NCBI GenBank assembly: GCA_002256005.1
Contig: NKIQ01000012.1
Coordinates: 1-64,000, forward strand
Source of the DNA: Alphaproteobacteria bacterium PA4
GTDB lineage: Bacteria > Pseudomonadota > Alphaproteobacteria > Sphingomonadales > Sphingomonadaceae
DNA: 64,000 bases
Direction: 5' to 3'
The first letter of the stretch is position 1. Every line of letters starts with the position of its first letter. The translations under genes and the position numbers were made by a program. The notes under the pieces were generated by a model. That model did not search any database. It was given only the letters and a program-made list of their open reading frames with translations, and was not told the origin of the DNA. Shown here one piece after another: positions 1-46,123 of this stretch.

Positions 1-100
1 CCTTAGGCCCCAGACCCCAATTGTCGGGACCGCCCGCGCGCGGCCTCACGCGAGCCAAACGACTGGGGTCTGGGGCCCAAGGCCCCAGCCGCCGGAGGCC
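1..100. repeat. REPIN-like inverted pair, left arm cut by window edge
   Basis: Two head-to-head copies of a palindromic unit. The left copy (1-19) is truncated by the window start. The right copy (65-100) runs in the opposite orientation. The unit has a GC-rich core that reads CTGGGGCC..GGCCCCAG, followed by GACCCC. The same unit recurs at 2748, 3677, 10640/10728, 26514/26604 and 46009/46089. Two inverted REP-type units separated by a short spacer match the REPIN architecture known from RAYT-mobilised repeats; that relationship is inference. Confidence 0.75.
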
Positions 101-159
101 CCTTCTTGCTTTTCCGCCGCGAAAACGCGACGCTGGAAAAAACCTTGGGGACCACGCAC

Positions 160-1182
160 ATGACCGAACAGAATCGCCGCTGGCTGCTCGCATCGCGGCC
201 GCAGGGCATGATCAAGGACAGTGATTTCACGCTGGACACCGGACCGGTGCCGCGGGCCGGGGAGGGGGAGTTCGTCGTCCGCGTCACGCATCTGTCCTTC
301 GATCCGACGCAGCGTGGCTGGCTGGGTGGGGATACCTATCTGCCGGCGGTGAAGATCGGCGATCCGGTGCGCGCCGGCGGCATCGGCCAGGTGGTCGAAT
401 CGCACCATCCGGGCTTTGCGGTGGGGGACGTGGTGCAGGGCACTTTCGGCTGGCAGGAATATGCCGTGTCGGCCGGCACCACCGAAACCGGCCCGGTGAC
501 GAAGCTGCACGCCGGGGTGACGCCGGAGCAGGCGCTGGGCGTGTTCGGCGTGACGGGGCTGACGGCCTGGTTCGGCCTGACCGACGTCGGCAGGCCGCAG
601 CCGGGCGACACGGTGCTGGTGTCGGGCGCGGCCGGCGCCACCGGTTCGGTGGTGGTGCAGGTGGCCAAGGCGCTGGGCTGTACGGTGATCGGCATCGCCG
701 GCGGGCCGGACAAATGCCGCTGGGTGGTGGAGAGCGCCGGCGCCGATGCCTGCATCGATTACCGCAGCGAAAATGTCGCCCGCCGCATCAAGGAACTGGC
801 GCCCAGGGGCGTCCATGTCGTGTTCGAAAATGTCGGCGGTGCCATCCTCGATGCTGCGCTGCTGAATATCCGCAAGGGCGCACGCGTCGTGCTGTGCGGC
901 GGCATCTCGTCGTACAACGACACGGGAGACAGCCGCTCCGGCCTCAACAATTACATGCAGTTGACGGTGATGCGGGCCCGCATGGAGGGCTTCATCATCC
1001 TCGATTACGGCGCCCGCTTCGGTGAAGGCGTGCAGGCGCTGGCCAAGCTGATGGCGGAAGGCAAGCTGGTCACCGCGGTCGACATGCAGGAAGGGTTCGA
1101 GAATTGCCCGGCGACGTTGCGCCGGCTGTTCGAGGGCAAGAATGTCGGCAAGCAGCTGCTGAAGGTCGCCGACCCGGTCTGA
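160..1182 (+). CDS. NADP-dependent oxidoreductase, zinc-free medium-chain family (CurA/YncB-like)
   Basis: A 340-residue cytosolic enzyme of the medium-chain dehydrogenase/reductase superfamily. The N-terminal GroES-like half carries SFDPTQRGW, typical of the prostaglandin/curcumin reductase branch. The Rossmann half has the nucleotide motif VSGAAGATGSVVVQ near residue 155. There is no zinc-binding cysteine cluster, so it probably reduces activated C=C bonds with NADPH. I chose ATG at 160 over an in-frame start at 106 because the homologous region begins at MTEQNRRW and the upstream stretch is repeat-derived. It converges on the acetyltransferase gene with a 7-base gap. The true substrate is unknown. 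Confidence 0.88.
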   Translation: MTEQNRRWLLASRPQGMIKDSDFTLDTGPVPRAGEGEFVVRVTHLSFDPTQRGWLGGDTYLPAVKIGDPVRAGGIGQVVESHHPGFAVGDVVQGTFGWQEYAVSAGTTETGPVTKLHAGVTPEQALGVFGVTGLTAWFGLTDVGRPQPGDTVLVSGAAGATGSVVVQVAKALGCTVIGIAGGPDKCRWVVESAGADACIDYRSENVARRIKELAPRGVHVVFENVGGAILDAALLNIRKGARVVLCGGISSYNDTGDSRSGLNNYMQLTVMRARMEGFIILDYGARFGEGVQALAKLMAEGKLVTAVDMQEGFENCPATLRRLFEGKNVGKQLLKVADPV

Positions 1183-1189
1183 TCGCGGC

Positions 1190-1825
1190 TCAGGCGTCGG
1201 GCAGCGCAAGGCCATGGACGGCGCGGTAGAAGCGCGCCGCGCCATCCCGGCTCGGCGCCGTGGCGAAATCCGGGGCAGCGGCCAGCCCCCGGCGCAGGGT
1301 GGCGGCGTCCAGCAGCCACCAGCGCGTCGCTTCGATCGCGGCGATGACATCGGCGGCAAAACGCAGCCGCAATGGCCGCGCCGGCACGCCCGCCATCACC
1401 GCATAGGGCGGCACATCGGCGGTGACGATGGCGCCGGCGCCGATGATGGCACCGCGGCCGATGCGCTGGCAGCCGGGCAGGATCACGGCATTATGGCCCA
1501 GCCAGACATCGTCGCCGATCTCCTGGCGGTTCGCCGGAATGCGCGGCCCGCCGGGAATGGCGCCGTCATACAGGATCGGGTGGCTGCTCAGCGCCGTGAT
1601 CGGGTGATTGGCCTCGATCACCCGCGCAGAGCTGGCGATCGAGCAATAGCGGCCGATGCGCGTGCCCGGTGGCATGCGCCAGCGGTCAAAGGCGCCGAAG
1701 CTGTAAAGGCCGATATCGAGGTCATGGCGCGCCAGAAAGCGCCGGCGCAGCCAGCGGCTTTCATATTGGCCACCGGGGGCCAGACGCACGCTCAGCCGGT
1801 CGATCAAATTGCCGATCATCGCCAT
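1190..1825 (-). CDS. hexapeptide-repeat acetyltransferase (CatB/Vat-like)
   Basis: About 211 residues with a left-handed beta-helix signature. The stretch [16 protein letters not shown], followed by [14 protein letters not shown] and AGVPARPLR, is the xenobiotic-acetyltransferase/CatB-like pattern and includes the probable catalytic His of WLGHNA. Such enzymes transfer acetyl from acetyl-CoA to hydroxyls of sugars or antibiotics, and the acceptor here cannot be told. Three in-frame ATGs lie close together (1846, 1825, 1819) and none has a strong ribosome-binding site; 1825 is a compromise. Nothing beside it suggests a resistance cassette or a polysaccharide locus. Confidence 0.82.
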
Positions 1826-1966
1826 GTCATGCCCGTTTCGGCGCATCCTGGCTGGGTTAGACGCCTGCGCTGAGCCCTTGTCAATTTGCAGGGGGTGACG
1901 CCGCCCGATGATTGACGCGGCGCGGCAACCGGCGTTTGATACGGTGCCAATCGAAAGGAACGCGCC

Positions 1967-2734
1967 ATGTTGCCGCTCATCGATCCCGAATTCGGGGCAA
2001 AATACATCAAATCCGCCAATGATTTCTATGGTTACGGCGTGCACCTGCTGTTCAACGAATGGTGGGAAAAGGCACCCCAGGCCACCATCGACAAATATGT
2101 GGCGGCGATCGAAAGCCACCCGGAACACGGCCCGCTGGCACGCGAAGCCTGGATGGCGCCGCCGTTCCGCCTCGCCTCGCTCGATCATTGCGCGCCGGGC
2201 ACGCTCGGCGCCGCCTATCGCGCCCATATGGTCGACAATGGCCTCGCCGAAAAACTGGCGGAAGGCTATGCCCTGCTCACCGCCGATTTCGAAGCCGGCG
2301 GCAAGCTCGATCGCATGCCCCCGGTCATCAAGTACAAGGTGCTGCGCGGCTTCCAGACGCACGATCTCCACCATGTGCTCACCGGCTATACCACCAGCCC
2401 GCCCAACGAACTGGCGCTGCAGGCCTTTCAGCTGGCGCAGATGGATTACCCCTATGCGGCGATGACGCTGGGCGTGATCGTCAGCCATATGGCCCTCGTC
2501 GACCCCTGGCTGATCAAGCCGGCGATGGACGCCATCACCGACGGCTGGGCCTTTGGCCGCCGGGCGAAGAGCCTGCAATTCATCCGGTTCGAAGAGATGC
2601 TCGACCGCCCGCTCGCCGATATCCGCCGCGAATATGGCCTGGAACGCGACACGCCGTTCAATCCGGTGATGGAACAGGTCTCCGAACTCATCGCCCAGGA
2701 ACTGGTGATCCAGGAACGCATGCGCGCCGCGTGA
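1967..2734 (+). CDS. Coq4 family protein
   Basis: A 255-residue soluble protein. The Coq4 metal-binding motif HDxxH(x11)E is intact as His132-Asp133, His136 and Glu148 ([10 protein letters not shown], then NE). Coq4 proteins act in ubiquinone biosynthesis, where they organise the pathway complex and take part in decarboxylation/hydroxylation of ring carbon C1. Many bacterial homologues have no assigned role, and sphingomonads often carry several paralogues, so a role in quinone synthesis here is inference. A good ribosome-binding sequence (GAAAGGA) precedes the ATG. No other ubi gene lies nearby. Confidence 0.8.
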
Positions 2735-2747
2735 GGCGGTGTTATCT

Positions 2748-2783
2748 GCCTCCGGCGGCTGGGGCCTGAGGCCCCAGACCCCC
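2748..2783 (+). repeat. solo copy of the REPIN-type palindromic unit
   Basis: A single copy of the window-wide unit, 13 bases after the Coq4-family stop codon. It has the same orientation as the left arms of the inverted pairs and no partner arm nearby. There is no T-run, so it is not a classical terminator, though the core hairpin could protect the transcript 3' end. Confidence 0.75.
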
Positions 2784-2851
2784 ATTTGCTGACGATAGCG
2801 GACGCTTGCCTTGCGTGCTAACCTGACTCATCGCGGCAGGGGGGGGATGCC

Positions 2852-3670
2852 ATGCCATATCGTCAGGCGCACTGGTTCGTCGGCCTTGTGCTGACCATGA
2901 TCCTGCTCGGTTTCTGGGGCAGTTACTGGTCGGCGATTGCCGCGGTGCCGCTGGCCTTCCACGTCCATGCCATCAGCGCCTCGGCCTGGCTGGTCCTGCT
3001 GATCGTCCAGAGCCTCGCCATCCACCGCCGGTCCAACGCGCTGCACCGCCAGCTCGGCCTCGCCAGCTTCGCGCTGTTCCCGCTGCTCATCCTCGGCTTC
3101 GTGATGATCATCGACATTTCGGCGCAAGGCTATGTCGCCGCCCGCAATGACTTCGCCGTCCACAACGGCCCGTCCTTCGGCATCGGCATGGCCATCGCCA
3201 TCGCGGCCTATCTGACGCTCTTCTATCTCGCGCTGAAGCACCGGCGGAATGTGAAACTCCACGCCGGCTATCTGCTCGCCACGCCGCTGATCCTGTTCGA
3301 ATCGCCCTTTTCGCGGGTGATGGGCGATTACCTGCCCTGGCTCAACATCATCAACAGCCCGGGGCCGCAGGTCGTGCAGGATACCATCGCCCTGTCCGAT
3401 GCCCTGTCGATCGTCTTCGCCCTGGCGCTCTATGCCCTGAACCGCAAGCACAGCACCCCCTGGCTCGTCGCTGCCGCCTTCATGGCCGCCCAGGCCATTG
3501 CCATGTGGTTCGCGCCGTTCGTCCCGGCCCTCGGCCCGATGTTCGCCGCCTATGCACGGATTCCGCTGGGGCTGACGGCATCGGCGGGTATTGCTGCGGG
3601 GGCGCTGGCGGGGTGGCTGGGCTGGCGTGCCGGGGGTGGTGCGCGGCGAGTGGTGGCGAAAGCGGTTTGA
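2852..3670 (+). CDS. uncharacterised multi-pass membrane protein
   Basis: A 272-residue protein with about seven hydrophobic segments spread over the whole length (roughly residues 8-28, 35-55, 70-88, 110-128, 145-160, 190-208, 215-260). Histidines sit near membrane faces (HVHAIS, HRQLG, HAGYLL), reminiscent of DUF2306-type or other haem-linked membrane proteins. I do not recognise a firm family. The ATG at 2852 follows a purine-rich GGGGGGG tract that can act as ribosome-binding site. Repeats lie on both sides, so it is probably transcribed alone. Confidence 0.7.
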   Translation: MPYRQAHWFVGLVLTMILLGFWGSYWSAIAAVPLAFHVHAISASAWLVLLIVQSLAIHRRSNALHRQLGLASFALFPLLILGFVMIIDISAQGYVAARNDFAVHNGPSFGIGMAIAIAAYLTLFYLALKHRRNVKLHAGYLLATPLILFESPFSRVMGDYLPWLNIINSPGPQVVQDTIALSDALSIVFALALYALNRKHSTPWLVAAAFMAAQAIAMWFAPFVPALGPMFAAYARIPLGLTASAGIAAGALAGWLGWRAGGGARRVVAKAV

Positions 3671-3676
3671 AAAAGG

Positions 3677-3712
3677 GCCTCCGGCGGCTGGGGCCTGAGG
3701 CCCCAGACCCCC
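3677..3712 (+). repeat. solo copy of the REPIN-type palindromic unit
   Basis: Second solo copy, starting 7 bases after the stop codon of the preceding membrane protein and almost touching the separate inverted-repeat element at 3723. It has the same orientation as the copy at 2748. Confidence 0.75.
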
Positions 3713-3722
3713 ATTGATAAAG

Positions 3723-3878
3723 ACCCCTCTCCCGCTTGCGGGAGAGGCGACTCGCCCCCTTGGGCGAGCGGGTGAGGGTGTCTCTTTCGTCGGACCGGTC
3801 CTCAACGTCGAAATGCGGGTACACCCTCACCCGGGGCGCTGGCGCGCCTCTCGCCTCTCCCGCAAGCGGGAGAGGGGT
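3723..3878. repeat. 156-bp element with perfect 28-bp terminal inverted repeats
   Basis: Positions 3723-3750 and 3851-3878 are exact reverse complements. Each arm contains its own hairpin (CTCTCCCGC/GCGGGAGAG). A second inverted pair, GGTGAGGGTG (3771-3780) and CACCCTCACC (3822-3831), nests inside. It holds no plausible gene. The arrangement resembles a MITE or a compound intergenic palindrome of the kind common in alphaproteobacterial genomes. Confidence 0.8.
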
Positions 3879-3917
3879 GGTACTGGCAACCATTGCGCGG
3901 TGGTGTAAATTGCGCTG

Positions 3918-4235
3918 ATGGACATGGTGCAGAACATTACCGATCAAAGCGCCCTGCTCGCCGAAGTCCGCACGACGCTGGCGCGCATCGACGCGGAGGA
4001 GGGGACGATGCCCGGTGAGGTCCTCGGCGCCATACTCGATGATGGCCTGCACCCGATCGCCGCGTGGCGGCGCTATCGCGGCCAGTCCCAGGCCGAACTG
4101 GCGCGGCGAACGGGGCTGAGCCAAGTCTGGCTGAGCCGCATTGAAAGTGGAGGCGGGACTGGGTCGGAAGCGACGCGGCGGAAGGTGGCGGAGGCGCTGG
4201 AGGCGCCGGTTTGGGCTTTGGAGAGCGGGGTTTGA
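3918..4235 (+). CDS. XRE-type helix-turn-helix transcriptional regulator
   Basis: A 105-residue protein with a C-terminal helix-turn-helix of the XRE/Cro class: AWRRYRGQSQAELARRTGLSQ (about residues 49-69) followed by the recognition segment VWLSRIESGGG. The N-terminal half (EVRTTLARIDAEE) looks like the short N-domain seen in some antitoxins. No toxin gene lies next to it, so it is either a solitary antitoxin-like regulator or an independent DNA-binding protein. ATG at 3918 and ATG at 3924 are both possible starts. It sits between two palindromic repeats. Confidence 0.78.
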   Translation: MDMVQNITDQSALLAEVRTTLARIDAEEGTMPGEVLGAILDDGLHPIAAWRRYRGQSQAELARRTGLSQVWLSRIESGGGTGSEATRRKVAEALEAPVWALESGV

Positions 4236-4277
4236 GTGTATTGTCCCCGGCATTTCGCACAGACTGTGCTGGCTCGT

Positions 4278-4311
4278 GTCTCGTCTCTCCCGCAGGCGGG
4301 AGAGACGAGAC
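4278..4311. repeat. 34-bp perfect hairpin between convergent genes
   Basis: Arms of 16 bases (GTCTCGTCTCTCCCGC and its exact complement) are separated by AG. It lies between the convergent ends of the XRE gene (4235) and the 57-residue gene (4363). It shares the CTCTCCCGC..GCGGGAGAG core with the element at 3723. The hairpin could act as a bidirectional terminator, but no T-run follows. Composition changes sharply right after it. Confidence 0.65.
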
Positions 4312-4362
4312 CTTTATTCAAGCGTAGGTGCGCAATTTCGCCTGAGGCTAGCGCCCTTTAAA

Positions 4363-4536
4363 TCAGTCAGCCGATTCCAAGACCGCAGGAAGAATGTGAG
4401 AGAAAATACGTCCAAACTTGAGGTCTGCAACGCGACCCTGGTTAATACGGTAATCAGATGCAATTTCGACGTACTTGTCTCCGCGTGCAATGCGGCCCTT
4501 GATAACTGCAATTTCAGCTCGGGAAAGGTGTTTCAT
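4363..4536 (-). CDS. 57-residue helix-turn-helix-like protein
   Basis: A small gene read directly from the minus strand: it starts MKHLSRAEIAVIKGRIARG and ends HILPAVLESAD. Residues about 20-43 (KYVEIASDYRINQGRVADLKFG) resemble the homeodomain-like helix-turn-helix found in phage and HNH-nuclease-associated proteins. TGGAG stands 8 bases before the ATG, a good ribosome-binding site. It lies 102 bases downstream of the recombinase-like gene on the same strand and shares its AT-rich composition. An excisionase-like or regulatory role is only a guess. Confidence 0.62.
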   Translation of the reverse strand: MKHLSRAEIAVIKGRIARGDKYVEIASDYRINQGRVADLKFGRIFSHILPAVLESAD

Positions 4537-4638
4537 AGTCTACTCCAGTTTGCGAAAGAGTGACTGGCCAATCACAATACTGAAAATAGCGTCCAGCGGC
4601 GGCTACGCAAGCGATGCAATTTTGTTTAATGCAGTGCT

Positions 4639-5916
4639 CTACCCAGAACTTATTGAAATAATTGTACCTTCTGAATCGAACTTTACACCGTTGGACACAA
4701 GTCGCTGCTCCTCCAACTTTCGGTAGATGGGCGCAGACCAGGCATACGTCATGTATGTATAGCTGGGCGTTGTCCGAGGCTTATAGGCGCGAGCGGCGTG
4801 ATTTAGGGATAGTTCGTGCCATCCCATGTCCTGTGCCATTTGCCGCCAAAAGCGACTGACCGTAGAAATCGGGTGCGATGGATCAGTAGTTGACGGGAAA
4901 TAGTATCTAGACACTAAGTCCTCGTCCTCCATACGGCGCGTCGCGAGCGCCAATGTTGCCGCCGCATTGGCATTAATCGGCTCAATACCTAAGTACCAGT
5001 AGTCCCTTTCTGATGGTGAATAAGGGTACCAGATTTGCGCCGCTACCTGATCACGCCGCGCCTTCAAAACGCGCGACAGTTTCGCTCCGGTCTGAAAATA
5101 CAGTTTGATAGCTAGTGCTTGTGCCCACCGCTCAGTTTCGGCGTCTAGTCGGGAAAACAGCTCTTTGAACTCGATTTGGCTGATCTTGATGTTTGCCGAC
5201 TCACCCGATGTTCGGCGCAAGTGCCATATCTTCAAGGTCTCGCTCTGAACATCGTGCCAAACTGCCATCAGCATCGGGCACACTTGTGCCGCAGAATGGA
5301 ACACTTGACCAACAAAAGATTGAAGAGTTCTTGCATTAGTTGGTGACAAGATCGGCGCCGTTAATGTGTTAGCTAGTAATTTTGGTTCAATCTTAGATAC
5401 CGCACACGAAAGAATTCCATCCGGCATATTTGAACTTAATTTGTCTAATCGGTCTACATATGACTCACGTCGTTGGGAATTTTTAAGGTAAGCAATTTCG
5501 GCTTCACACAGGTCCCCAAGCGTTCGGCGCGCCATCCGATCGGATGCCATCTCCAAGCGAATGCGGCGGCGCTGAGAAGGGGTTATTTGACCGCGGTGTA
5601 TTGCAACTCTTTCTTTAGCCCATAGGCGCGCGTCAGCTAAGCAATTTGCAAGCCTATCTTGCACACTCCAGTCTCGGGCTTGATTTGGGCCATCAGTCCG
5701 AAGAGCGCGGGAGGCTTCCGCTTGGAAAGATTCTCGGACAATGCGCTGCTCTAAATTACGAACTCTTATAGCGAAGGCGCCGCCGGGTCCGGCGCGCGTC
5801 CGCCATAATCGAATTCCAAAACCGGGGACTTCGGTGTCCGATATCCACAGTTCGCCACGATCCGGAATCGTAACAGACTGAACAACGCGCTTTGTCAGTC
5901 GGACGCGTAGTGCCAT
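4639..5916 (-). CDS. degenerate tyrosine-recombinase-like (integrase) protein
   Basis: A 425-residue protein. The N-terminus (LTKRVVQSV... WISDTEVPGFGIRLW, residues 7-38) matches the arm-type DNA-binding region of DUF4102-type phage integrases. The C-terminal half follows the tyrosine recombinase fold, but the catalytic residues look lost. The expected TGxR arginine is Lys279 (TGAKLSRVL), the HxxR box reads HELS at 367-370 with no arginine, and Tyr398 may be the only candidate nucleophile. The reading frame is open throughout with ordinary codons, so it is not an obvious pseudogene. Start ATG at 5916. It ends 102 bases before the small helix-turn-helix gene. Confidence 0.65.
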   Translation of the reverse strand: MALRVRLTKRVVQSVTIPDRGELWISDTEVPGFGIRLWRTRAGPGGAFAIRVRNLEQRIVRESFQAEASRALRTDGPNQARDWSVQDRLANCLADARLWAKERVAIHRGQITPSQRRRIRLEMASDRMARRTLGDLCEAEIAYLKNSQRRESYVDRLDKLSSNMPDGILSCAVSKIEPKLLANTLTAPILSPTNARTLQSFVGQVFHSAAQVCPMLMAVWHDVQSETLKIWHLRRTSGESANIKISQIEFKELFSRLDAETERWAQALAIKLYFQTGAKLSRVLKARRDQVAAQIWYPYSPSERDYWYLGIEPINANAAATLALATRRMEDEDLVSRYYFPSTTDPSHPISTVSRFWRQMAQDMGWHELSLNHAARAYKPRTTPSYTYMTYAWSAPIYRKLEEQRLVSNGVKFDSEGTIISISSG

Positions 5917-5929
5917 AGGTGCCTCAGCC

Positions 5930-7908
<1,979 letters not shown>

Positions 7909-7924
7909 GGTGCCAGTGGTACGC

Positions 7925-8677: not shown

Positions 8678-8738
8678 GCCGCGTCGGGCGCAGGGCGGCA
8701 AGATAGGGCGGGGGTGTTGGGCGCTCGTGTCGCGGGTG

Positions 8739-9539
8739 TCAGGCGGGGGCGAGCATGAAGGCGTCGCCGTGCGCCCAGAAATTCGTACGCATGGTCGCAA
8801 AGCTGATCCGGCCATAGCCGCCACGGCCCCAGTCTGCCCCCCAGCTGTTGCGAAAATGGAACATCTGCTGGCGCAGGTCATAACCGGTCACAGCGACGAA
8901 ATGGTTGGGAAAATCTTCCCGTGCGTCTTCACCGCTCGGCACCAGCCCAGGCACAGGTTCCACCAGGCCATCATCACGCCAGCCGGCGGCGTTGTGGGGC
9001 AGCGCCAGCCCCACCACAGCCGGCCTGCGCAGCATGCGGCGTTGCAAGTCCTCGATCCGATAACTGTAAGGCAACATGTACATCTGCAGTTTCACCTGCT
9101 TGCCAAGCGCCAACAGGGCCGCATCCGGCCGCTGGACCAGCTCGCCTGGCACCTGCTTTTGCAGATAGGGCCGGGCAGACGCAGGCACCATGCCGAAATC
9201 CTGCACGATATCCATCACAGCATACAAATCGACGGTTTCATCGGCGGGCAGGCGGCTGCCGCCATGCTTGATATCCGTGAGATATTGTTCCGAGAATATG
9301 ACCGGCAGGCCGGTCTGGCGGGCCACAGCGGCCTCGGCAAGGGCGGTGGCGGCGAAATAGGCGCAGGTCATGCGGTCGCCCTGCTGCTTTGCCGGGCCAA
9401 GCAGGGCGGACAGGTCGACCACCGGCGGCAGCGGCAGTTCCGGCACCACCGGCCGGGCGCGGGCGGCCGTCGCGAGCGCCAGCGGGGCGGCCAGCAGCTG
9501 GCGTCGGTTGAGGCCTGGCCAGGGTCGTAATGATGTCAT
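8739..9539 (-). CDS. exported papain-like (C1-fold) cysteine peptidase
   Basis: A 266-residue protein with a twin-arginine-like leader (LNRRQLLAAPLALATAARA). The papain triad is recognisable: Gln52/53 and Cys59 (KQQGDRMTCAYF), a later His (NHFVAVTGYD) and Asn in FRNSWGADWGRGGYG. It is therefore probably an active C1-type peptidase exported folded. No propeptide of eukaryotic size is visible. Bacterial C1A-like proteins are sparsely studied, so the substrate is unknown. It is followed by the fatty acid hydroxylase gene. Confidence 0.8.
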   Translation of the reverse strand: MTSLRPWPGLNRRQLLAAPLALATAARARPVVPELPLPPVVDLSALLGPAKQQGDRMTCAYFAATALAEAAVARQTGLPVIFSEQYLTDIKHGGSRLPADETVDLYAVMDIVQDFGMVPASARPYLQKQVPGELVQRPDAALLALGKQVKLQMYMLPYSYRIEDLQRRMLRRPAVVGLALPHNAAGWRDDGLVEPVPGLVPSGEDAREDFPNHFVAVTGYDLRQQMFHFRNSWGADWGRGGYGRISFATMRTNFWAHGDAFMLAPA

Positions 9540-9632
9540 GCAGGCTCCCTCAGGGGTGGAACCTAACGTCGCGGGGGTGGGCCTGCCAAGGCGGCTTGCG
9601 CCGGCTGGGCAGAATAACGGGGCTGCTGCTTG

Positions 9633-9712: not shown

Positions 9713-9714
9713 GT

Positions 9715-10557
9715 TCAGCCCTTGGCGCGGGCGTAGGCCTGGGTGCCGTGGGTGAGGACGCGGTCGCCGGGCAGCACCGCATCGCTGTCGATGTCGCTGG
9801 CGCCGGCGAGTTCGGCATAGACCGGGCCGAAATCGGTGCGCAGCGTCTGGTCGAGGAGGTCCTCGAAACTGTCGATGACGAAATAGCTCTGCTGATAATC
9901 GTCGATGCGATAGCGGGTGCGCATGATGCGCTTCAGGTCAAAGCCGATGCGGTTGGGCGAGGGGTCATCGAGCGCGAACAGCGATTCGCCGCGCGAGGAG
10001 ACGATGCCGGCGCCATAGATGCGGCGCCCCTCCGGCGTGTCGATCAAGCCGAATTCGACTGTGTACCAGTAGAGCCGCGCCAACTGGTCGATGGCGCCGC
10101 GCCCGGCCGCGCGCAGGCCGCCGCGGCCATAGGCCTGCATGTAATCGGCAAACACCGGATGCGCGAGCAACGGCACATGGCCGAAGACATCGTGGAAGAC
10201 ATCGGGCTCCTCCAGATAGTCGAGCTGGTCGGCGCCGCGGATGAAACGCCCGGCGACAAAGCGGCGATTGGCGAGATGATCGTAGAACACCGCATCGGGG
10301 ACCAGGCCGGGCACCGCCACCACCTGCCAGCCGGTGGCGCGCATCAGCCGCTCCGACAGGCGCTGGAAATCCGGGATGCCGCCCCGATCGAGCTGCAGAA
10401 TCGCCAGCCCCTCCAGAAATTCCGGCGCGGCGCGGCCGGGCAGCAGGCGGGCCTGGCGGGCAAACAGCGTGTCCCACACCGCATGTTCGGCCGGCGTGTA
10501 CCGGCCCCAATCCTGCGGGATGGTGCCATCGGCGGCAGTGTCGGCAGCGACGATCAT
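9715..10557 (-). CDS. phhA: phenylalanine 4-hydroxylase
   Basis: A 280-residue non-haem iron monooxygenase that converts phenylalanine to tyrosine with tetrahydropterin. The iron ligands are clear: His122 and His127 (FHDVFGHVPLLAHP) and Glu168 (YWYTVEFGLI). It has the short bacterial form, with no regulatory ACT domain. The partner pterin-4a-carbinolamine dehydratase (phhB) is 15 kb away at 24855 rather than adjacent. ATG at 10557 is the only reasonable start because the upstream sequence in frame is repeat-derived; no strong ribosome-binding site precedes it. A small palindrome overlaps the start codon. Confidence 0.95.
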   Translation of the reverse strand: MIVAADTAADGTIPQDWGRYTPAEHAVWDTLFARQARLLPGRAAPEFLEGLAILQLDRGGIPDFQRLSERLMRATGWQVVAVPGLVPDAVFYDHLANRRFVAGRFIRGADQLDYLEEPDVFHDVFGHVPLLAHPVFADYMQAYGRGGLRAAGRGAIDQLARLYWYTVEFGLIDTPEGRRIYGAGIVSSRGESLFALDDPSPNRIGFDLKRIMRTRYRIDDYQQSYFVIDSFEDLLDQTLRTDFGPVYAELAGASDIDSDAVLPGDRVLTHGTQAYARAKG

Positions 10558-10569
10558 AACATCTGTTAT
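10556..10569. promoter_or_regulatory. 14-bp palindrome overlapping the phhA start
   Basis: ATAACA-TC-TGTTAT, an AT-rich inverted repeat in a GC-rich context, covers the phhA start codon. Position and symmetry would suit a repressor operator or a translational control hairpin. No regulator gene is adjacent and the site may be chance. Confidence 0.3.
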
Positions 10570-10639
10570 AAACTGCCGATGCCGCCTTGGCCATGGCGGA
10601 TGCGCGTTGGCGATATGGACTTGGCGTTGGAAAGAGAAG

Positions 10640-10762
10640 GCCTCCGGCGGCTGGGGCCTTGGCCCCAGACCCCATTCAGCAGTGCGGTCCATTCGTTACC
10701 GCAGAGCGTCCTCGACAAGAATGGATTGGGGTCTGGGGCCTGCGGCCCCAGCCCCCGGAGGC
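10640..10762. repeat. REPIN-like inverted pair
   Basis: Left arm 10640-10673 and right arm 10728-10762 are head-to-head copies of the window-wide unit with a 54-base spacer. It lies between the divergent phhA and atpI genes. Confidence 0.85.
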
Positions 10763-11235: not shown

Positions 11236-11242
11236 ACGCGTC

Positions 11243-11992: not shown

Positions 11993-12048
11993 TCCCAACC
12001 CGAACAATCGTTTAACCCCAAAATCGCTTAAACCAAGAAGGACTTACA

Positions 12049-26513: not shown

Positions 26514-26638
26514 GCCTCCGGCGGCTGGGGTCGAAGACCCCAGACCCCATTCGTTGGCGTTCCGCGAGCACAGAACGCGGTGCTTTGACGAAGCCAAGGA
26601 AATGGGGTCTGGGGCCTAAGGCCCCAGCCGCCGGAGGC
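26514..26638. repeat. REPIN-like inverted pair
   Basis: Arms 26514-26548 and 26604-26638. The right arm runs into the stop codon of the minus-strand hydrolase. The left arm's core differs slightly (GGGGTCGAAGACCCC) but stays a perfect stem, showing compensatory change. Confidence 0.85.
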
Positions 26639-35560: not shown

Positions 35561-35573
35561 GCCTGTCTCCCGC

Positions 35574-36785: not shown

Positions 36786-36900
36786 GCCGTATCCTCTCGC
36801 CGGTGCCGGCGTTCCGGGCAAGCCCATCCATTTTCATCCGCCCTGCGGTCAAATCCTGCCGCCATTTCCCCCGGCGGCGACGCGGCCCTAGGGTGACGCC

Positions 36901-39449: not shown

Positions 39450-39796
39450 AACCGCTGCCCAAACATGTCACCGGCAACCGCCCGGCGGTGCATGACGAAC
39501 CGGCCATCGACCGGCTGATCGCCATGGTCCTTGCGCTGACCCGTGAAGTCTCGGTGCTGCGCGACCGCGTCGATACGCTGGAATTGCTGGGGCAGCAGGC
39601 CGGCTGGCTGGCCCCCGAGGCGGTTGACGCGTTCGTGCCGCCGCTGCCCGTCCGCCAGCGCCGCGAAGGCGCGCGCGAGGCGATGATCGGCCGGGTGCTG
39701 GCCATCCTGTCGGAAGAAATCGCCGATCTCGATGGCGGCGAGACCGATGACGCCTATTGGGCCACGATCGCGGCGATCGAAAAGGGCGAGGCATAG
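39446..39796 (+). CDS. uncharacterised 116-residue protein of the flavoprotein operon
   Basis: A soluble protein with a central coiled coil-like segment (LIAMVLALTREVSVLRDRVDTLE, about residues 24-46) and a helical acidic C-terminus. I recognise no family. Its ATG sits inside the methyltransferase stop (ATGA). Coupling suggests a small partner or chaperone of the upstream enzymes; that is inference. Confidence 0.72.
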   Translation: MKPLPKHVTGNRPAVHDEPAIDRLIAMVLALTREVSVLRDRVDTLELLGQQAGWLAPEAVDAFVPPLPVRQRREGAREAMIGRVLAILSEEIADLDGGETDDAYWATIAAIEKGEA

Positions 39797-39806
39797 CACC
39801 AGCCAA

Positions 39807-39831
39807 CTCCCTCCCCCCTGCGGGGAGGGAG
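39807..39831. repeat. hairpin CTCCCTCCCC / GGGGAGGGAG
   Basis: Ten-base arms and a five-base loop, 11 bases after the operon's last stop codon. It could stabilise the transcript end. There is no T-run. Confidence 0.55.
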
Positions 39832-39869
39832 GCTGTTCAGCCGGCCGCCAACCATGGCATAGCGCCGCC

Positions 39870-40472
39870 ATGACCATCCAATCGCTGTTCGCCACGCCCT
39901 TCTACACCGCCGCCATCGCCGACGCGGATTTGCTCGCCGAACTCGAGCACAGCTGCCGCAGCCTCGCCGCCGAGGATCGCGCCGGCCGGGCCTGGGCCAA
40001 GACGAACGGCTATCAGGGCTATACCAGCTATGCCTCGCTGACCGATCTGCCGCAGCGCGACCCGGCCTTTGCCGATTTGAAGCGCCATCTCGATCGCCAC
40101 GCCCGCAGCTTTGCCGATGCCGTGCATTTTGATCTGGGCGGGCGCAAGCCGAAGCTCGACAGCCTGTGGGTCAATGTCCTGAAGCCCGGCGGCGGCCATA
40201 GCGGCCACATCCATCCGCACAGCATCATTTCGGGCACGCTCTACATCGCCGTGCCGCCGGGCGCCGGGCCGCTGAAGCTGGAAGATCCGCGCCTGCCGCT
40301 GATGATGAACGCCCCCGGCCGCACCCCGGAAGCTCCCGAAACATCCCGGCCCTTCGTCTATAGGGCGCCGCAGCCGGGAACGCTGTTCCTGTGGGAAAGC
40401 TGGTTGCGCCATGAAGTGCCGGCGGGGACGGCGAAGAGCGACCGCATCAGCATCAGCTTCAACTATAGCTGA
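39870..40472 (+). CDS. 2OG-Fe(II) oxygenase family protein (TIGR02466 type)
   Basis: A 200-residue protein matching the putative 2OG-Fe(II) oxygenase family TIGR02466. The jelly-roll metal site is at HSGHIHPHSIISGTLYI, with a distal His in RHEVPAG and an arginine for 2-oxoglutarate (SDRISISFN). It likely oxidises a protein or small-molecule substrate that is not known. Start ATG at 39870. It converges with the ribbon-helix-helix gene (5-base gap). Confidence 0.9.
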   Translation: MTIQSLFATPFYTAAIADADLLAELEHSCRSLAAEDRAGRAWAKTNGYQGYTSYASLTDLPQRDPAFADLKRHLDRHARSFADAVHFDLGGRKPKLDSLWVNVLKPGGGHSGHIHPHSIISGTLYIAVPPGAGPLKLEDPRLPLMMNAPGRTPEAPETSRPFVYRAPQPGTLFLWESWLRHEVPAGTAKSDRISISFNYS

Positions 40473-40477
40473 CGGCG

Positions 40478-40669
40478 CTATTCCGCCTTCGGCCGACCCC
40501 GCTTCGGTGTGGCGCTGACCGCCACCTTGACGCCGCGCCGCGCCAGTGCCTCGCGCAACAGGCACTCGATTTCGGCATTGATGCTGCGCAGGTCGGTGGC
40601 GGCGGCGCGTTCGATGGCGTCGTGCAGCGCGGGGTCGAGCCGCAGGGCAAAGGGTTTGCGCGCCGTCAC
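40478..40669 (-). CDS. ribbon-helix-helix (Arc-type) DNA-binding protein
   Basis: A 63-residue protein. The beta-strand KPFALRLD (residues 5-12) and helices DPALHDAIERAA and INAEIECLLREALARR are the Arc/MetJ fold, followed by a basic tail TPKRGRPKAE. It starts 5 bases after the SPFH gene's stop, so it is cotranscribed. Such proteins often autoregulate, and the palindrome at 41584 upstream of the operon is a candidate site. The SPFH/Arc pair recurs in other genomes. Confidence 0.9.
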   Translation of the reverse strand: MTARKPFALRLDPALHDAIERAAATDLRSINAEIECLLREALARRGVKVAVSATPKRGRPKAE

Positions 40670-40673
40670 GCCA

Positions 40674-41567
40674 CTATTGGTAGAGCGTGCCGGTGTTCAG
40701 CACGGGCTGGGTGTCGCGCTCGCCGCACAGCACCACCATCAGATTGCTGACCATGGCGGCCTTGCGCTCGTCATCCAGCTCGACGACCTTCTTGTCGCTG
40801 AGCATGGCCAACGCCATCTCGACCATGCCGACGGCACCGGCGACCAGGGTTTCGCGCGCGGCAACCACGGCGGCAGCCTGCTGGCGGCGCAGCATGGCGC
40901 CGGCGATTTCCGGGGCATAGGCCAAATGGGTGAAGCCGCATTCGTCGACGGTGATGCCGGCGACGGTCAACCGGGCGATCAGCTCGGCGCGCAATTCGCT
41001 GCTGATCCGGTCATGGTCGCCGCGCAGCGTCACTTCCTTGTGCTCGAAATCGTCATAGGGGTAGCGGGCGCCGATGGTGCGCACGGCGACTTCGATCTGG
41101 GCGGCGACAAAGGCGCGATAATCATCGACATCGAACAGCGCCTGCGCCGAATCGGTGACGCGCCAGACCACCTGGGCGGCCATTTCGATCGGGTTGCCGC
41201 GCAGGTCATTGACCTTGATCATCTGCGAAATCAGGTTGTTGGCGCGCAGCGAGATCTTGGTCTTGCCCATCCACGGCCAGGTCCAGCGCAGGCCGGGGCT
41301 GCGATCGGTGCCGCGATAATCGCCGAACAGCGTCACCGCCGCTGCTTCATTGGGGCCGATCATGTAGAAACCGGGCAGGATGAACAGCGCGGCGAACAGC
41401 GATAGCCCGGCGAGGGCCAGCAGGATCGGCGCATGGTTCGCGGCGGCCAGAAACACCAGGCCACCGCTGGCGAGCAGCGCGACCAATAGCAGGAGCAGCA
41501 TCATATAGCCGCTGGCCCCGTTGCCGGCGGTTTCGCGGCTGGGTTGGCGGATGGCAGCTTCGGACAT
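40674..41567 (-). CDS. SPFH/band-7 domain membrane protein
   Basis: A 297-residue protein with two N-terminal hydrophobic segments (about 22-42 and 46-64), then an SPFH domain with [21 protein letters not shown] and the PGLRWTWPW segment. A helical C-terminus completes it. SPFH proteins form membrane rings and microdomains and often support proteases or stress responses. It is followed directly by the Arc-type gene and preceded by a strong palindrome. Start ATG at 41567. Confidence 0.93.
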
Positions 41568-41583
41568 TGTCGTTACCCTTGTT

Positions 41584-41615
41584 GGAATGATGATATCATA
41601 ATTATATCAAATTCC
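41584..41615. promoter_or_regulatory. AT-rich nested palindrome upstream of the SPFH operon
   Basis: TGATAT (41591-41596) pairs with ATATCA (41604-41609) around an AT-rich centre. An outer pair GGAAT (41584-41588) and ATTCC (41611-41615) extends the symmetry. It lies 17 bases upstream of the SPFH start codon, in a region otherwise very GC-rich. The combination of -10-like AT content and dyad symmetry is what an autorepressing ribbon-helix-helix protein would bind. Confidence 0.55.
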
Positions 41616-41633
41616 GACAATTGCAAGCCCCCT

Positions 41634-41909
41634 TCAATCGCTGCCACCGCCGCCGCCATCACCGCCGCCGGCGTCGCCTCCCCAGCTGCCGCTGCTGCCG
41701 CCGCCGCCGAAGTCACCACCGCCGGGGGTAAAGTCCGTCGCCGCTTCGCCAACCGACAACGGTGCGTCTGGCGCGTCGCCGATGATGATACCGTCGCTGC
41801 CGTCGTTCCGGCGCGTCTGCGGTGCCGACCTGCGCTTGTGCAGCAGCAGCCAGAGCAACAGCGCCAAAACCAGGATGGCAATGATCATCACGACGATGGC
41901 GCCCGTCAC
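41634..41909 (-). CDS. small membrane protein with a glycine/serine-rich tail
   Basis: A 91-residue protein: one membrane helix (IVVMIIAILVLALLLWLLL, about 5-23), a short basic stretch (HKRRSAP) and a C-terminal tail dominated by Gly with Ser, Asp and a single Trp. Start GTG at 41909, four bases after the upstream gene's stop. I recognise no family; low-complexity tails of this type occur in small secreted or membrane proteins. Confidence 0.7.
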   Translation of the reverse strand: MTGAIVVMIIAILVLALLLWLLLHKRRSAPQTRRNDGSDGIIIGDAPDAPLSVGEAATDFTPGGGDFGGGGSSGSWGGDAGGGDGGGGGSD

Positions 41910-41912
41910 CGA

Positions 41913-42044
41913 TCAGTCTGGCTTGTCGCCATCGCGCGGCGGCCGGCGGAACAGATTGGCCGGGTCCTTGTAGGCCAGCCACATGAAATAGCCGATCATG
42001 GCCATGAAGCTGACGATCAGGGCGATGACGCCGTAGAGGAACAT
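41913..42044 (-). CDS. 43-residue single-pass membrane protein
   Basis: Read directly from the minus strand: MFLYGVIALIVSFMAMIG and a helix through about residue 24, then a basic tail ending RRPPRDGDKPD. It starts with ATG at 42044, about 15 bases after the parC stop codon, with AAAAGG upstream. The glycine-tail gene follows after 3 bases. Both likely ride on the parC transcript. Function unknown. Confidence 0.7.
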   Translation of the reverse strand: MFLYGVIALIVSFMAMIGYFMWLAYKDPANLFRRPPRDGDKPD

Positions 42045-42059
42045 GCGAATAGCCTTTTA

Positions 42060-44318
42060 CTAAAATGTGTTGTCGCGCGGAAAACCGGTCGGCGGCAGGC
42101 GGCCGGCGCTGCCGCGGGCGCCCTTCCAGAAGGTCAGGTCGCTTTCGGTGCGAGTCCGTGCGCTGGCGCCGCCCATCGCCCAGCTGAGGCCTTCGGCCAT
42201 CACGAAGCTGCGGGCGTCCGACAGGCCGCCGTCCTTGTAGCGTTGCAGCGCCACGCCCTGGCCGCGCGCCATCACCGGCAGCTCGGCACGATCGAACACC
42301 AGCAGCTTCCGATTGTCGCCGATGACGGCGATCATGTCGTCCCCCGGCGGGAGCGGGCGGATGACCTTCAGCACCGCCTTGTCCTTCAGATTGACGACCT
42401 GGCGGCCCTTGCGGGTTTCGGCGAGCACGTCCGCCGCCTCGACGATGAAGCCGCGGCCGTCGCTGGCCGCGAGCAACAGCGGTGCCTCCGGCTTCCACAC
42501 CGCCAGCGCGACGATGCTGGTTGTTTCGGCCAGGTCGATCATCAACCGCAACGGCTCACCGAAGCCGCGGCCGCCGGGCAGCTTGTCCGGGCTCAGCGTG
42601 TAGAAACGGCCATCGGAGGCGGCGACCATGATCTTGTCGGTGGTATAGGCATGGAAGGCAAAGGCTGGGCCATCGCCCTCCTTGAACTTGATGGCGTCGC
42701 CGGCGCCAAGGTCGCTGTGCCCCTTCATCGCCCGCACCCAGCCCTTCTGGCTGGCGATGATGGTCAGCGGTTCCTTTTCGATCATCGCCTCCAGCGGCAC
42801 CAGCTTGATATCGGGCGCGGCGGTGATCAGCGTGCGGCGGCGGCCGATCAGGGTCGTCGGCCCATAGGTTTCGCGGATGGCGGCAAGATCGGTCTGCAGG
42901 CGCGCCGTCTGCGCATCAGGGCTGTCGATCAGCGTGCGCAGCCCCTTGGCCTCCAGCGTCAGCGCCTTGTTCTCGCGCTCGATCTCGATCTCCTCCAGCT
43001 TGCGCAAACTGCGCAGCCGCATGTTGAGAATGGCTTCGGCCTGGGTTTCGGTCAGGTCGAAGGCGGCGATCAGATCGGCCTTGGCATCATCGGCCTCCCG
43101 GATGATGCGGATGACCTCGTCAAGGTTGAGATAGGCCTTGAGCAGCCCCCCCAAAATCTCCAGCCGCGCCTCGATCTTGCCGAGCCGGTAACGCGAGCGG
43201 GCCACCAGCACTTCGCGCTGGTGCACCAGCCAGCGGGCGATGACCTGCTTCAGCGACAGCACGCCGGGCCGGCCATGATCGAGCACGTTCATGTTGAGCG
43301 AGACGCGCACTTCCAGGTCGGTCAGCTTGAACAGGCTTTCCATCAACATGTCGGCATCAACGTTGCGCGATTTCGGCTCGATGACGATGCGCAACTGTTC
43401 GTCCGATTCGTCATCAATGTCGCCGAGGATGGCGAGCTTCTTGTCGTTGACCAGCGCGGCCAGCGCCTCGATCAGCTTGCCCTTCACCACCTGATAGGGG
43501 ATTTCCTCGACGATGATGCGCCACATGCCCTGGCCCAGCTCCTCGCGGCGCCAGCGGGCGCGCAGGCGGAAGCTGCCGCGGCCGGTGGCATAGCTTTCGG
43601 CGATGCTGGCCGCCGGCTCCACGCAGACGCCGCCGGTGGGGAAGTCCGGGCCCTTCACCCATTGCAGCAGGTCGGTATCGGTCAGTTCGCCATTGCCGAG
43701 CAGCGCCATGGCGGCATCGAGGATTTCGGCGGCATTGTGCGGCGGGATGCTGGTCGCCATGCCGACGGCAATGCCGGAGGAGCCATTGGCGAGCAGATTG
43801 GGGAACAGGCCGGGGAACACCTCCGGCTCTTCCTCCTCGCCATTATAGGTCGCGCGGAAATCGACGCTCGCCTCGTCGAGGCCATCCATCAGCAGCGTCG
43901 CGGCGCGGGTCAGCCGCGCCTCGGTGTAGCGCATGGCAGCGGCGTTATCGCCGTCGATATTGCCGAAATTGCCCTGGCCGTCGATCAGCGGATAGCGCAG
44001 CGAGAAATCCTGGCTGAGCCGCACCAGTGCGTCATAGATCGACTGGTCACCATGCGGGTGATATTTCCCCATGACATCGCCGACGACGCGCGCCGATTTC
44101 TTGTAGGCCGAGGCTGGATCGAGGCGCAGCAGCCGCATGCCCCACAGGATGCGGCGGTGCACCGGCTTCAGCCCGTCGCGCAGATCGGGCAGCGAACGCG
44201 CCGTGATCGTCGACAGCGCATAGACGAGGTAGCGATCGCCGAGCGCCGTATCGAAGGGCGTATCGAGAATGCGATCGGCAGGCGGTTCGGGCGGAGCGGC
44301 GGTGGTGGTTCTGGCCAT
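42060..44318 (-). CDS. parC: DNA topoisomerase IV subunit A
   Basis: A 752-residue subunit that decatenates replicated chromosomes with ParE. The active-site Tyr lies in [10 protein letters not shown] (residue about 121), and the quinolone-pocket region reads [15 protein letters not shown] with Gln and Asp at the positions equal to Ser80 and Glu84 of E. coli. A C-terminal beta-pinwheel follows. Length equals that of E. coli ParC. ATG at 44318 (MARTTT) has no clear ribosome-binding site. recO lies upstream on the same strand. Confidence 0.96.
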
Positions 44319-44359
44319 GGCGCCGGGATAGCGCGCAGCCGCCGCCGGGTCCACCGGAC

Positions 44360-45079
44360 TCAGCCGAGCCGTGCCACCAGTCGTTGTCGCACGGCCATCA
44401 CCTCGGCCTTGCGACCGTTCAGGACATCGCGGGCGAGGAAATGCCCGGTCAGTCGCAGCCCGTCACGGATCGCCGGCAGATCGGCCAAGGCGTCACCGAT
44501 CAGGAACGCCGGCAGAGGCAGCAGCCGCGCCGCCCAGGGCTGCCCCGCGGCGCGCGAGACGGCTTGCGACGATTTGGGCGAGACATAGGCGAGGTCGCTG
44601 GTGACGCCGGTGGCGGCGCAGGCCGCCAGGTCGAGCCCGAACCCCAGCTCGGCGAGCAGCAGCAGTTCGTAGCGCACGATGCTCTCGCCGACGCTGGTCA
44701 GATCGGCGCCGGCGGCCAGGGCGCCGACCAGCGCAGCCAGGGTATGGAAGAGCGCCGGGTGCGGCACCGCCTCGGCCAGCGCATTGACGGTCAGCGCGGT
44801 CAACCATTCGAGCGCGGCGAGACCGCTGCCGGACAGCACCAGCGCGGCCCGTACCGCGGTCAGCTCTACCGTCGCAGTGGCCAGCTGCGTGTCGGTGCGC
44901 GCCTTCAGCGTCAGGGCGACACCATTCCCCGCCTGCAACACCGGCCGCATGCTGCGACCGCGGCCACCATGGACGTAGCCGGCCACCAGCCCATGCGCCG
45001 GCGTCAGGAAACGCACCACTGCGCCATGTTCGCCATGCGGCAGCGCCGTCAGAACAATGGCGTCGGTTTCCGTCAGCAC
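44360..45079 (-). CDS. recO: DNA repair protein RecO
   Basis: A 239-residue protein with the N-terminal OB-fold (TDAIVLTALPHGEHGAVVRFL) and a helical C-terminal domain. It loads RecA on gapped DNA with RecR. The zinc-binding cysteines of some homologues are not seen. It lies 4 bases downstream of era, in an era-recO-parC series that is common in alphaproteobacteria. Confidence 0.93.
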   Translation of the reverse strand: MLTETDAIVLTALPHGEHGAVVRFLTPAHGLVAGYVHGGRGRSMRPVLQAGNGVALTLKARTDTQLATATVELTAVRAALVLSGSGLAALEWLTALTVNALAEAVPHPALFHTLAALVGALAAGADLTSVGESIVRYELLLLAELGFGLDLAACAATGVTSDLAYVSPKSSQAVSRAAGQPWAARLLPLPAFLIGDALADLPAIRDGLRLTGHFLARDVLNGRKAEVMAVRQRLVARLG

Positions 45080-45083
45080 GCTG

Positions 45084-45980
45084 TCAGTCGACCCAGTCGA
45101 GTCCCGAATCGCGGTAGACGGCGCGGTCTTCGGTCCAGTCTTCCTTGACCTTGACGTGCAGGAACAGGTGCACCTTCTTGCCGGTCAGTTCGCTGATGCC
45201 GGCGCGGGCGGTGCTGCCGATCTCCTTCAGCCGGTTGCCGCTCTTGCCCAGCACGATGGCGCGCTGGCTGTCGCGCTCCACCAGGATCTGCTGGTGGATG
45301 GCGATGCTGCCATCACGGCGCTCTTCCCATTTCTCGGTCTCGACAGCGCTCGAATAGGGCAGTTCGGCGTGCAGCTGGTTGTAAATCTGCTCGCGGGTGA
45401 TTTCCGCCGCCATCAACCGGGTCGTCGCGTCGGTCAGCTGGTCTTCCGGGAAATGCCAGGGGCCGGGCGGCATGGCGGCGGCCAGCGCACCCTTCAGTTC
45501 CGCCACGCCATCGCCGGTGTTGGCCGAAACAAAATAGGTGTCACGAAACGCCGCCAGGCTGTTGGCGTGGGCGGCGAGATCGAGCAGCCTTGTCTTGGCG
45601 GTGATGTCGACCTTGTTGAGCACCAGCAGCTTAGGCTCCGGCCGGTGAATCAGGCTTTCCAGGATCGCCGTCGCATCGTCACGAAAGCCGGTCTTGGCAT
45701 CGACGACAAAGGCGATCAGGTCGGCGCCCTCCGCCCCCTCCCATGCCGCGCGCACCATGGCGCGGTCGAGCCGGCGGCGCGGCGCGAAAATCCCCGGTGT
45801 GTCGATCAACAGCAGCTGCGCCGAACCTTCCGTCGCGATGCCGATCAACCGCGTCCGCGTCGTCTGCACCTTGGACGAAACGATCGCCACCTTCTGCCCG
45901 ACCAGCGCATTGACGAGGGTCGATTTGCCGGCATTGGGGGCGCCGACGATGGCGATGGAACCGCAGCTTGTGTCTGTCAT
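45084..45980 (-). CDS. era: GTPase Era
   Basis: A 298-residue GTPase required for 30S subunit maturation. G1 GAPNAGKST, G3 DTPG and G4 NKVD are present, and the C-terminal KH domain has AIVLGKSGNRLKEIG. Start ATG at 45980. It follows rnc on the same strand, but a repeat pair of 115 bases has entered the rnc-era gap. Confidence 0.97.
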   Translation of the reverse strand: MTDTSCGSIAIVGAPNAGKSTLVNALVGQKVAIVSSKVQTTRTRLIGIATEGSAQLLLIDTPGIFAPRRRLDRAMVRAAWEGAEGADLIAFVVDAKTGFRDDATAILESLIHRPEPKLLVLNKVDITAKTRLLDLAAHANSLAAFRDTYFVSANTGDGVAELKGALAAAMPPGPWHFPEDQLTDATTRLMAAEITREQIYNQLHAELPYSSAVETEKWEERRDGSIAIHQQILVERDSQRAIVLGKSGNRLKEIGSTARAGISELTGKKVHLFLHVKVKEDWTEDRAVYRDSGLDWVD

Positions 45981-46008
45981 CTGATGTCCTGAAGTGGGGA
46001 GGCGTATT

Positions 46009-46123
46009 GCCTCCGGCGGCTGGGGCCTCAGGCCCCAGACCCCGAATTGATGGACTGTCCGTAGCACGAAGCGCGCATGAATCGAAATGGGGTCTGGGGC
46101 CTGAGGCCCCAGCCGCCGGAGGC
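46009..46123. repeat. REPIN-like inverted pair inside the rnc-era gap
   Basis: Arms 46009-46043 and 46089-46123 with a 45-base spacer. It lies between the rnc stop and the era start on the same strand, so both genes probably read through it. Its two hairpins may be RNase III substrates or transcript stabilisers; no evidence is available. Confidence 0.85.

Follow-up and report, generated by a model that had tools for sequence, protein, structure and literature searches.

Paired REPIN-like hairpins behind gene stops in two alphaproteobacterial orders, with no detectable RAYT transposase

The palindromic unit and its copies

The window analysed here is the first 64 kb of contig C29 in the genome of Alphaproteobacteria bacterium PA4 (G000; 3.0 Mb in 53 contigs, 96% complete), and it carries ten copies of a short palindromic unit. 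A first-pass annotation had listed these copies, eight of them as four head-to-head pairs with the first cut at the edge, and had likened them to REPINs, the hairpin-forming doublets of repetitive extragenic palindromic (REP) sequences mobilised by REP-associated tyrosine transposases (RAYTs). A check of the sequence recovered all ten copies, the four pairs and two single units (Table 1). The unit at position 1 is truncated by the contig start (base 1 of C29), and its tag and 5' stem are missing. A complete unit consists, in order, of an 11-nt tag GCCTCCGGCGG, an 8-bp stem CTGGGGCC, a loop of mostly 3 nt, the second stem strand GGCCCCAG and a tail ACCCC.

Table 1. Copies of the unit in the window and their immediate surroundings
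Feature	Position	Strand	Remarks
Head-to-head pair, cut by the contig start	1..99		left unit (at 1) truncated; right unit 65-99
Single unit	2748..2782	+	13 nt past the end of the open reading frame (ORF) 1967-2734 (+)
Single unit	3677..3711	+	6 nt past the end of ORF 2852-3670 (+)
Head-to-head pair, 123 bp	10640..10762		units at 10640 and 10728; biopterin-dependent hydroxylase ORF (9715-10692, -) extends into the left arm
Head-to-head pair, 125 bp	26514..26638		units at 26514 and 26604; between two convergent alpha/beta-hydrolase genes; left arm stem compensated
Head-to-head pair, 115 bp	46009..46123		units at 46009 and 46089; 35-bp arms 100% complementary; between tandem rnc and era

How common is the unit in the rest of the genome? 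The 17-mer GCCTCCGGCGGCTGGGG has 322 matches in G000 at up to one mismatch (169 on the + strand, 153 on the - strand) and its reversed-pattern control has none, so its abundance is not a matter of chance. To describe the copies, 248 kb of the genome were read in 48 stretches around known copies, window included; the stretches were chosen from about 100 of the 322 places listed, and the counts of pairs and singles are therefore those of a sample. At up to two mismatches the sample holds 122 units, which form 53 pairs (less than 700 bp apart) and leave 16 units unpaired. Neighbours less than 300 bp apart are oriented +- in 52 cases, ++ in one, and -+ or -- in none. The outer span of the pairs is variable, mostly 79-130 bp. 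A second scan of the same 248 kb, anchored on the 3' stem and the tail, found 253 hairpin hits. The tag GCCTCCGGCGG stands at 113 of them with 0 or 1 mismatch, and the other 140 are by eye nearly all opposite-strand or shifted-frame readings of units; in a few, a CGTC-type repeat has taken the place of the tag. A looser arrangement was seen in Roseococcus sp. SDR (L250, 1175-1698), where inverted arms about 450 bp apart surround one small gene, Rieske-like by eye.

Conservation of stem and tag

The left arm at 26514 has the stem CTGGGGTC..GACCCCAG in place of CTGGGGCC..GGCCCCAG, a compensated swap reported before and confirmed here. Is this an isolated case? Stem statistics were taken on 109 pairs of 60-160 bp from every carrier read, setting aside the unparsed pair L253 and pairs carried by a miniature inverted-repeat transposable element (MITE, see below); the 109 include eight pairs from IMG/VR, two of them nearly identical, and some orthologous pairs. 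Variant cells number 56 among 1744 stem cells: 24 are two-sided changes that preserve Watson-Crick pairing, 7 are one-sided and G-U-like, and 25 are broken. The opposite arm is unaltered in 22 of the 24 compensated cells, and when the IMG/VR pairs are excluded 23 of 54 variant cells are compensated. The tag changed 11 times in 2398 cells and the tail 33 times in 1090, with no change mirrored in the other arm (0/11 and 0/33); counts for the tag and the 5' stem are biased low, as units were located by their 17-mer match. Since compensation occurs within arms and the other arm is left unaltered, the hairpin of each arm is the conserved structure, and the tag is conserved as sequence. In predicted folds, three pairs of the window reach -95 to -110 kcal/mol (z -8 to -13) with one long stem favoured, and three single units reach -20 to -25 kcal/mol.

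In the congener G017, 6 of 16 arms share one two-sided stem variant, and the elements concerned have unlike spacers; none of the 108 arms in G000 and G013 has it. Thus arms seem to spread or to be exchanged within a genome. Two units have an 18-nt loop instead of 3 nt on an intact or nearly intact stem (L271 near 2680; L092, 1659-1756).

Distribution among genomes

The copy number varies greatly within the genus. At least one match is present in 14 of its 24 genomes, with 322, 276, 110, 72, 52, 30, 17, 9, 7 and 2 copies in ten of them, one copy in each of four, and none in the remaining ten. Outside the genus 4 of 36 genomes contain one match each, and an exact 19-mer was absent from all 384 other sampled Alphaproteobacteria. 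Carriers among the matches listed (named contigs) are Polymorphobacter multimanifer, metagenome-assembled genomes (MAGs) of Sphingomonadales, an 'uncultured Alphaproteobacteria' MAG and Roseococcus sp. SDR, together with a Roseococcus MAG, three Acetobacteraceae MAGs and one MAG labelled Deltaproteobacteria. Polymorphobacter belongs to the Sphingomonadales and Roseococcus to the Acetobacterales, and the unit occurs in both of these orders. In the Acetobacterales the 17-mer is found nearly exact 59 times in SDR, 286 times in the Roseococcus MAG and 57, 418 and 68 times in the Acetobacteraceae MAGs; the MAG labelled Deltaproteobacteria has 5 copies. Most carriers are draft or metagenome assemblies, and SDR, not labelled as a MAG, is an isolate.

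Plasmid and phage collections gave no match to the pair at 46009. The 19-mer is present in eight IMG/VR stretches, one of which (L244) lacks the hairpin. In L243, L245, L247 and L248 the proteins are of phage or gene-transfer-agent type, with genes for terminase, portal, capsid and a DUF2460-type protein among them, and the unit lies near a terminase or a portal gene. Such surroundings are to be expected in a collection made up of virus-like contigs only, and they were not taken as evidence for a vehicle.

Turnover at orthologous sites

Are the copies fixed at identical sites in all relatives? They are not, since empty sites exist in G023 and in Roseococcus-group genomes. G023 has nothing at the place of the 26514 pair, and its two genes adjoin directly; by eye, a CGTC-type repeat stands there in G004 and, after the first gene, in G013; and G017 carries a pair of its own after the first gene. 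Within the Roseococcus group, identity is 86-92% along 12 kb of SDR sequence. At site A a pair is present in SDR, G063 and G061 and missing in G062, where the tandem genes apparently overlap at GTGA. At site B a single unit is present in SDR and G061 and missing in G062 and G063, and G061 has an A-rich tract only with the unit. Seven distinct sites were compared; those other than A and B came to light only through loci fetched for the unit in both genomes, and these give no estimate of turnover.

In 12 comparisons of intact arms, the core of tag, stem and tail shows 2 differences in 384 positions, against 13 in 82 for the alignable spacers of three sites (Fisher p 5e-9); the loci were retrieved by exact-unit search, which favours a conserved arm on one side of each comparison. 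Some spacers are unalignable at two sites, and at two sites a 3-nt loop lies opposite an 18-nt loop on a stem that is intact or differs by one base. An exchange of arms between copies would explain such nearly frozen arms around drifting or replaced spacers. In the SDR stretch (L270:5000-17000) two insertions of about 105-130 bp without the unit, at query positions of about 9420-9559 and 10390-10523, are absent in G061 and G062, and are perhaps other intergenic repeats.

That the hairpin is mobile, as had been proposed, is supported on an evolutionary scale by a copy number of 0 to 322 within one genus, a genome-specific subfamily, empty sites and changes at orthologous sites. We consider it probable that the elements form a new REPIN-like family, mobile over evolutionary time through an agent that is not a resident RAYT, while arms are exchanged and, in this genome, copies hitch-hike on a MITE. 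Another reading, offered tentatively, is that REPIN-like elements can be multiplied by non-RAYT machinery, either an unrecognised single-strand-acting enzyme or arm-templated copying from one dispersed hairpin to another, and can pass between orders and re-expand in a new host.

Several points weigh against the mobile family. No mobiliser was found in the searches below and no transposition was observed; the carriers are mostly draft or metagenome assemblies, in which an enzyme within a collapsed repeat may be missed. The species compared in the genus of the window are distant (about 70-79% identity at the tested site), and gain and loss at the empty sites are not polarised. Two orthologous arms outside the 12 are decayed or lost (site D in G061, with the stem partly deleted, and site E in G064, missing). 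The frozen arms fit purifying selection as well as they fit arm exchange. Loop sharing was tried as a sign of within-genome spread and set aside: chance reaches it in 0 of 500 permutations for G000, G013 and G017 (3 of 500 before the filter was corrected), and in the Roseococcus group in 298 of 500 (290 before), where it is not above chance.

Position relative to genes

The elements lie close behind genes. The median distance from stop codon to element is 13 nt (n=78) in the Polymorphobacter group, a set that pools the eight IMG/VR pairs of undefined host, and 11 nt (n=42) in the Roseococcus group. Both neighbours were called for 62 of 108 pairs, being convergent in 31, tandem in 30 and divergent in 1; these position and context counts come from a crude home-made gene caller, which missed era beside the 46009 pair, and omit pairs L072 and L120, wrongly filtered as MITE. 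Divergent gaps make up 0/23, 0/23 and 1/4 of the gaps with a unit (two locus sets and the window) versus 19/107, 27/124 and 8/51 of those without, in a locus list that includes one contig (L057) of the Deltaproteobacteria-labelled MAG. Target preference at stop codons and selection against other insertion sites would each account for so tight a placement.

The placement would also agree with a quite different origin, namely bidirectional 3'-end hairpins (terminators, mRNA-end protectors or RNase III sites) that are maintained by selection and spread by gene transfer or recombination, not by transposition. Both medians and the near lack of divergent neighbours suit this explanation, and so do the strong predicted folds of the window pairs and the intact arm cores kept at orthologous sites. 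The outward ends of non-MITE pairs are moreover T-rich, with 4.0-6.9 T per 12 nt in convergent, tandem and partly called contexts versus about 2 expected, and 2.0 at the one divergent pair. In tandem contexts, however, the end that does not serve a gene is as T-rich as the serving one (4.35 v 4.76, p 0.24; 6.92 v 5.85, p 0.98), so selection for terminators would not readily explain the tracts. Compensation works within arms and not from arm to arm, and a copy number between 0 and 322 in one genus is ill-suited to a needed function. Some placements are awkward as well: the pair at site A separates tandem genes that apparently overlap in G062, and another parts rnc from era, usually a tightly linked pair of core genes. 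The latter, the 46009 pair, starts 29 nt past the rnc stop (-, 46153-46155) and ends 28 nt before the inferred era ATG (-, 45980). On balance we regard selected 3'-end hairpins as unlikely. As RNA, the long stems of the pairs would be substrates of RNase III, and such processing may have consequences where a pair stands between rnc and era.

Some other features of the window may be mentioned here. The true start of the biopterin-dependent hydroxylase gene probably lies just below the pair at 10640. A large inverted repeat of another type (CTCTCCCGCTTGCGGGAGAGG) is seen by eye at 3720-3880, directly after the single unit at 3677. A thiamine pyrophosphate (TPP) riboswitch (RF00059, 64.2 bits) lies at 7803-7912 (-), upstream of ORF 5930-7807 (-).

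Search for a transposase

The first-pass annotation attributed the movement of the pairs to a RAYT and set against this the possible lack of an IS200/IS605-type transposase. The REPIN-like anatomy and the head-to-head pairing stand, and a resident RAYT was not found. The Y1 family PF01797 has no member in G000 at E up to 1. Across the genus, with E up to 0.01, it is missing from 23 of 24 genomes, and the one genome with a match (G009) has no copy of the unit. Among 11 genomes reached through loci, only the Deltaproteobacteria-labelled MAG has a match at E up to 0.1. With duplicates counted once, PF01797 is absent from all 14 alphaproteobacterial carriers that have 7 copies or more. The RAYT model NF047646 exceeds its cut-off in none of 11 carriers, with two chance-level matches (one at E 0.32 in a 474-aa ORF, one at E 0.36 in a 514-aa ORF); among 14 control genomes 8 give a match, E. 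coli included, and 1 is above the cut-off. As far as tested, the family is independent of RAYTs. An autonomous copy flanked by units was also looked for: the +/- intervals of 1.5-3 kb in L112, L137, L138 and L077 hold ordinary or unassigned ORFs, with no transposase by eye, no family search having been made on them.

Could these be classical REPINs whose RAYT was lost or missed? The layout is that of REPINs, inverted doublets with arms more conserved than the spacer (PMC3116915; statements cited by PMC number refer to the available parts of these papers). A gene lying in a repeat might go unseen in draft assemblies, but a genome normally has only one copy of its RAYT (PMC8049555). This explanation would require repeated loss of the RAYT in two orders, the searches above gave neither PF01797 nor a RAYT above the cut-off in the alphaproteobacterial carriers tested, and no GTAG/GGAG tag stands at the 5' side of the hairpin. 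We therefore think it improbable.

MITE-borne subfamily

Pairs of the modal length of 128 bp share their spacer in G000, where 38 copies belong to this subfamily; the spacer is found in 0 of 23 congeners, in which the MITE ends were not searched. A looser match gives 39 subfamily copies in the stretches read, and inverted ends around GTATCGACATTCA accompany 27 of them on both sides, 8 on one and 4 on neither, the probability of a random match being 14% per stretch. The MITE is about 215 bp long, with TA/CTAG-like borders and ends of its own, which we take to be IS5-like, and it is often found at gene ends. Inspection by eye found 6 of 37 copies without a MITE flank on either side, and in these the homology ends at the tag ends; one of them (C12:84541) is outside the 38. 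Such flankless copies fit movement of the pair itself and spacer exchange into an older pair alike. In the MITE copies L223, L227, L237, L192, L193 and L196 a repeat CACCCCGGACTTGATCCGGGG or CCCCGGACTTGATCCGGGG, similar to CGTC-tagged REPs, is nested in the pair or partly replaces it.

Could the whole family then consist of MITEs on which a DDE transposase acts in trans? This fits most of the one subfamily, whose spacer is in none of the 23 congeners. The other aligned pairs have no such ends by eye, and their outer span is not constant. Nor is there a target duplication: 33 non-MITE pairs, examined at nine lengths of 2-12, show no excess of direct repeats at their ends (z -1.4 to 1.2). Inverted complementarity from flank to flank past the tag is not above chance (z -1.4 to -2.1). 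For the family as a whole there is little probability in this explanation. DNA-uptake-type signal sequences, which also occur as inverted pairs after genes, would agree with the long invariant tag and the position at gene ends, but are very improbable, as all 8 window copies of the exact 12-mer GCCTCCGGCGGC lie within units and none is free-standing, the whole 35-mer is conserved and the stem is compensated.

Comparison with known repeats

The family resembles REPINs in its inverted doublets of tagged hairpins, its spacers less conserved than the arms, its extragenic position, its singlets and its tens to hundreds of copies (Bertels and Rainey 2011, PMC3116915). It differs in that no RAYT was detected in its carriers, the 11-nt tag is unlike GTAG and the spacing is not fixed; moreover, the unit is common to two orders, whereas RAYTs are portrayed as single-copy genes passed on vertically (PMC8049555). 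CGTC-tagged REPs are common in Alphaproteobacteria, form mostly head-to-head dimers with a stem of 8-9 bp and a short tail, and have no known dedicated transposase according to PMC3733652. Relatives carry repeats that look by eye like the CGTC type at comparable sites, and some MITE copies contain such repeats too. Such REPs are described with a CGTC-type tag (CGTC/TGTC/CCTC), an AT-first stem, a loop of 4-5 nt and a tail CCA (PMC3733652), whereas the unit here has its 11-nt tag, the GC-rich stem CTGGGGCC, a loop of mostly 3 nt and the tail ACCCC; CCTC is present in the tag, but 6 nt away from the stem. The Correia elements (CREE) of Neisseria are likewise short inverted repeats beside genes, variable between strains, with RNA that RNase III may bind or cut (PMC2649163). 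In our family each arm forms a hairpin of its own and target duplications were not observed, a distinction drawn without comparing CREE sequences. REP-like families without conserved terminal motifs (PMC3733652) are also hairpin repeats lacking GTAG or CGTC, a likeness by description only.

In the open literature, subscription papers and preprints aside, the 11-mer of the tag appears in 4 papers which, by their listing, concern other subjects; in PMC12510024 the string is part of a construct sequence, and PMC12306157 is a further source. In the same literature no joint mention of Polymorphobacter and 'palindrom' was found, and for Roseococcus only a biofilm review, by its listing.

Evolutionary scenario and implications

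How could a mobile REPIN-like family without a resident RAYT have arisen? One scenario is that copies are spread by a trans-acting activity that recognises tag and hairpin, and that arms are exchanged between copies by recombination, separately from their spacers. In G000 a MITE, probably one mobilised by a DDE transposase, would have picked up one copy and multiplied it as cargo. Transcribed copies would fold into very stable hairpins, either at the 3' end of an mRNA or between genes of an operon, which probably limits the sites where a copy can survive. Transfer between the orders would have been horizontal.

REPINs have been modelled as mainly vertical populations that depend on a domesticated RAYT (PMC8049555). 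The family described here also bears on an older puzzle, that of the alphaproteobacterial CGTC repeats without a known dedicated transposase (PMC3733652). If the proposed reading is true, a family built like REPINs but expanding and crossing orders without a RAYT would break the link between REPIN and RAYT, and it would offer a natural system in which to hunt for the enzyme, including the isolate Roseococcus sp. SDR and its near relatives with empty sites.

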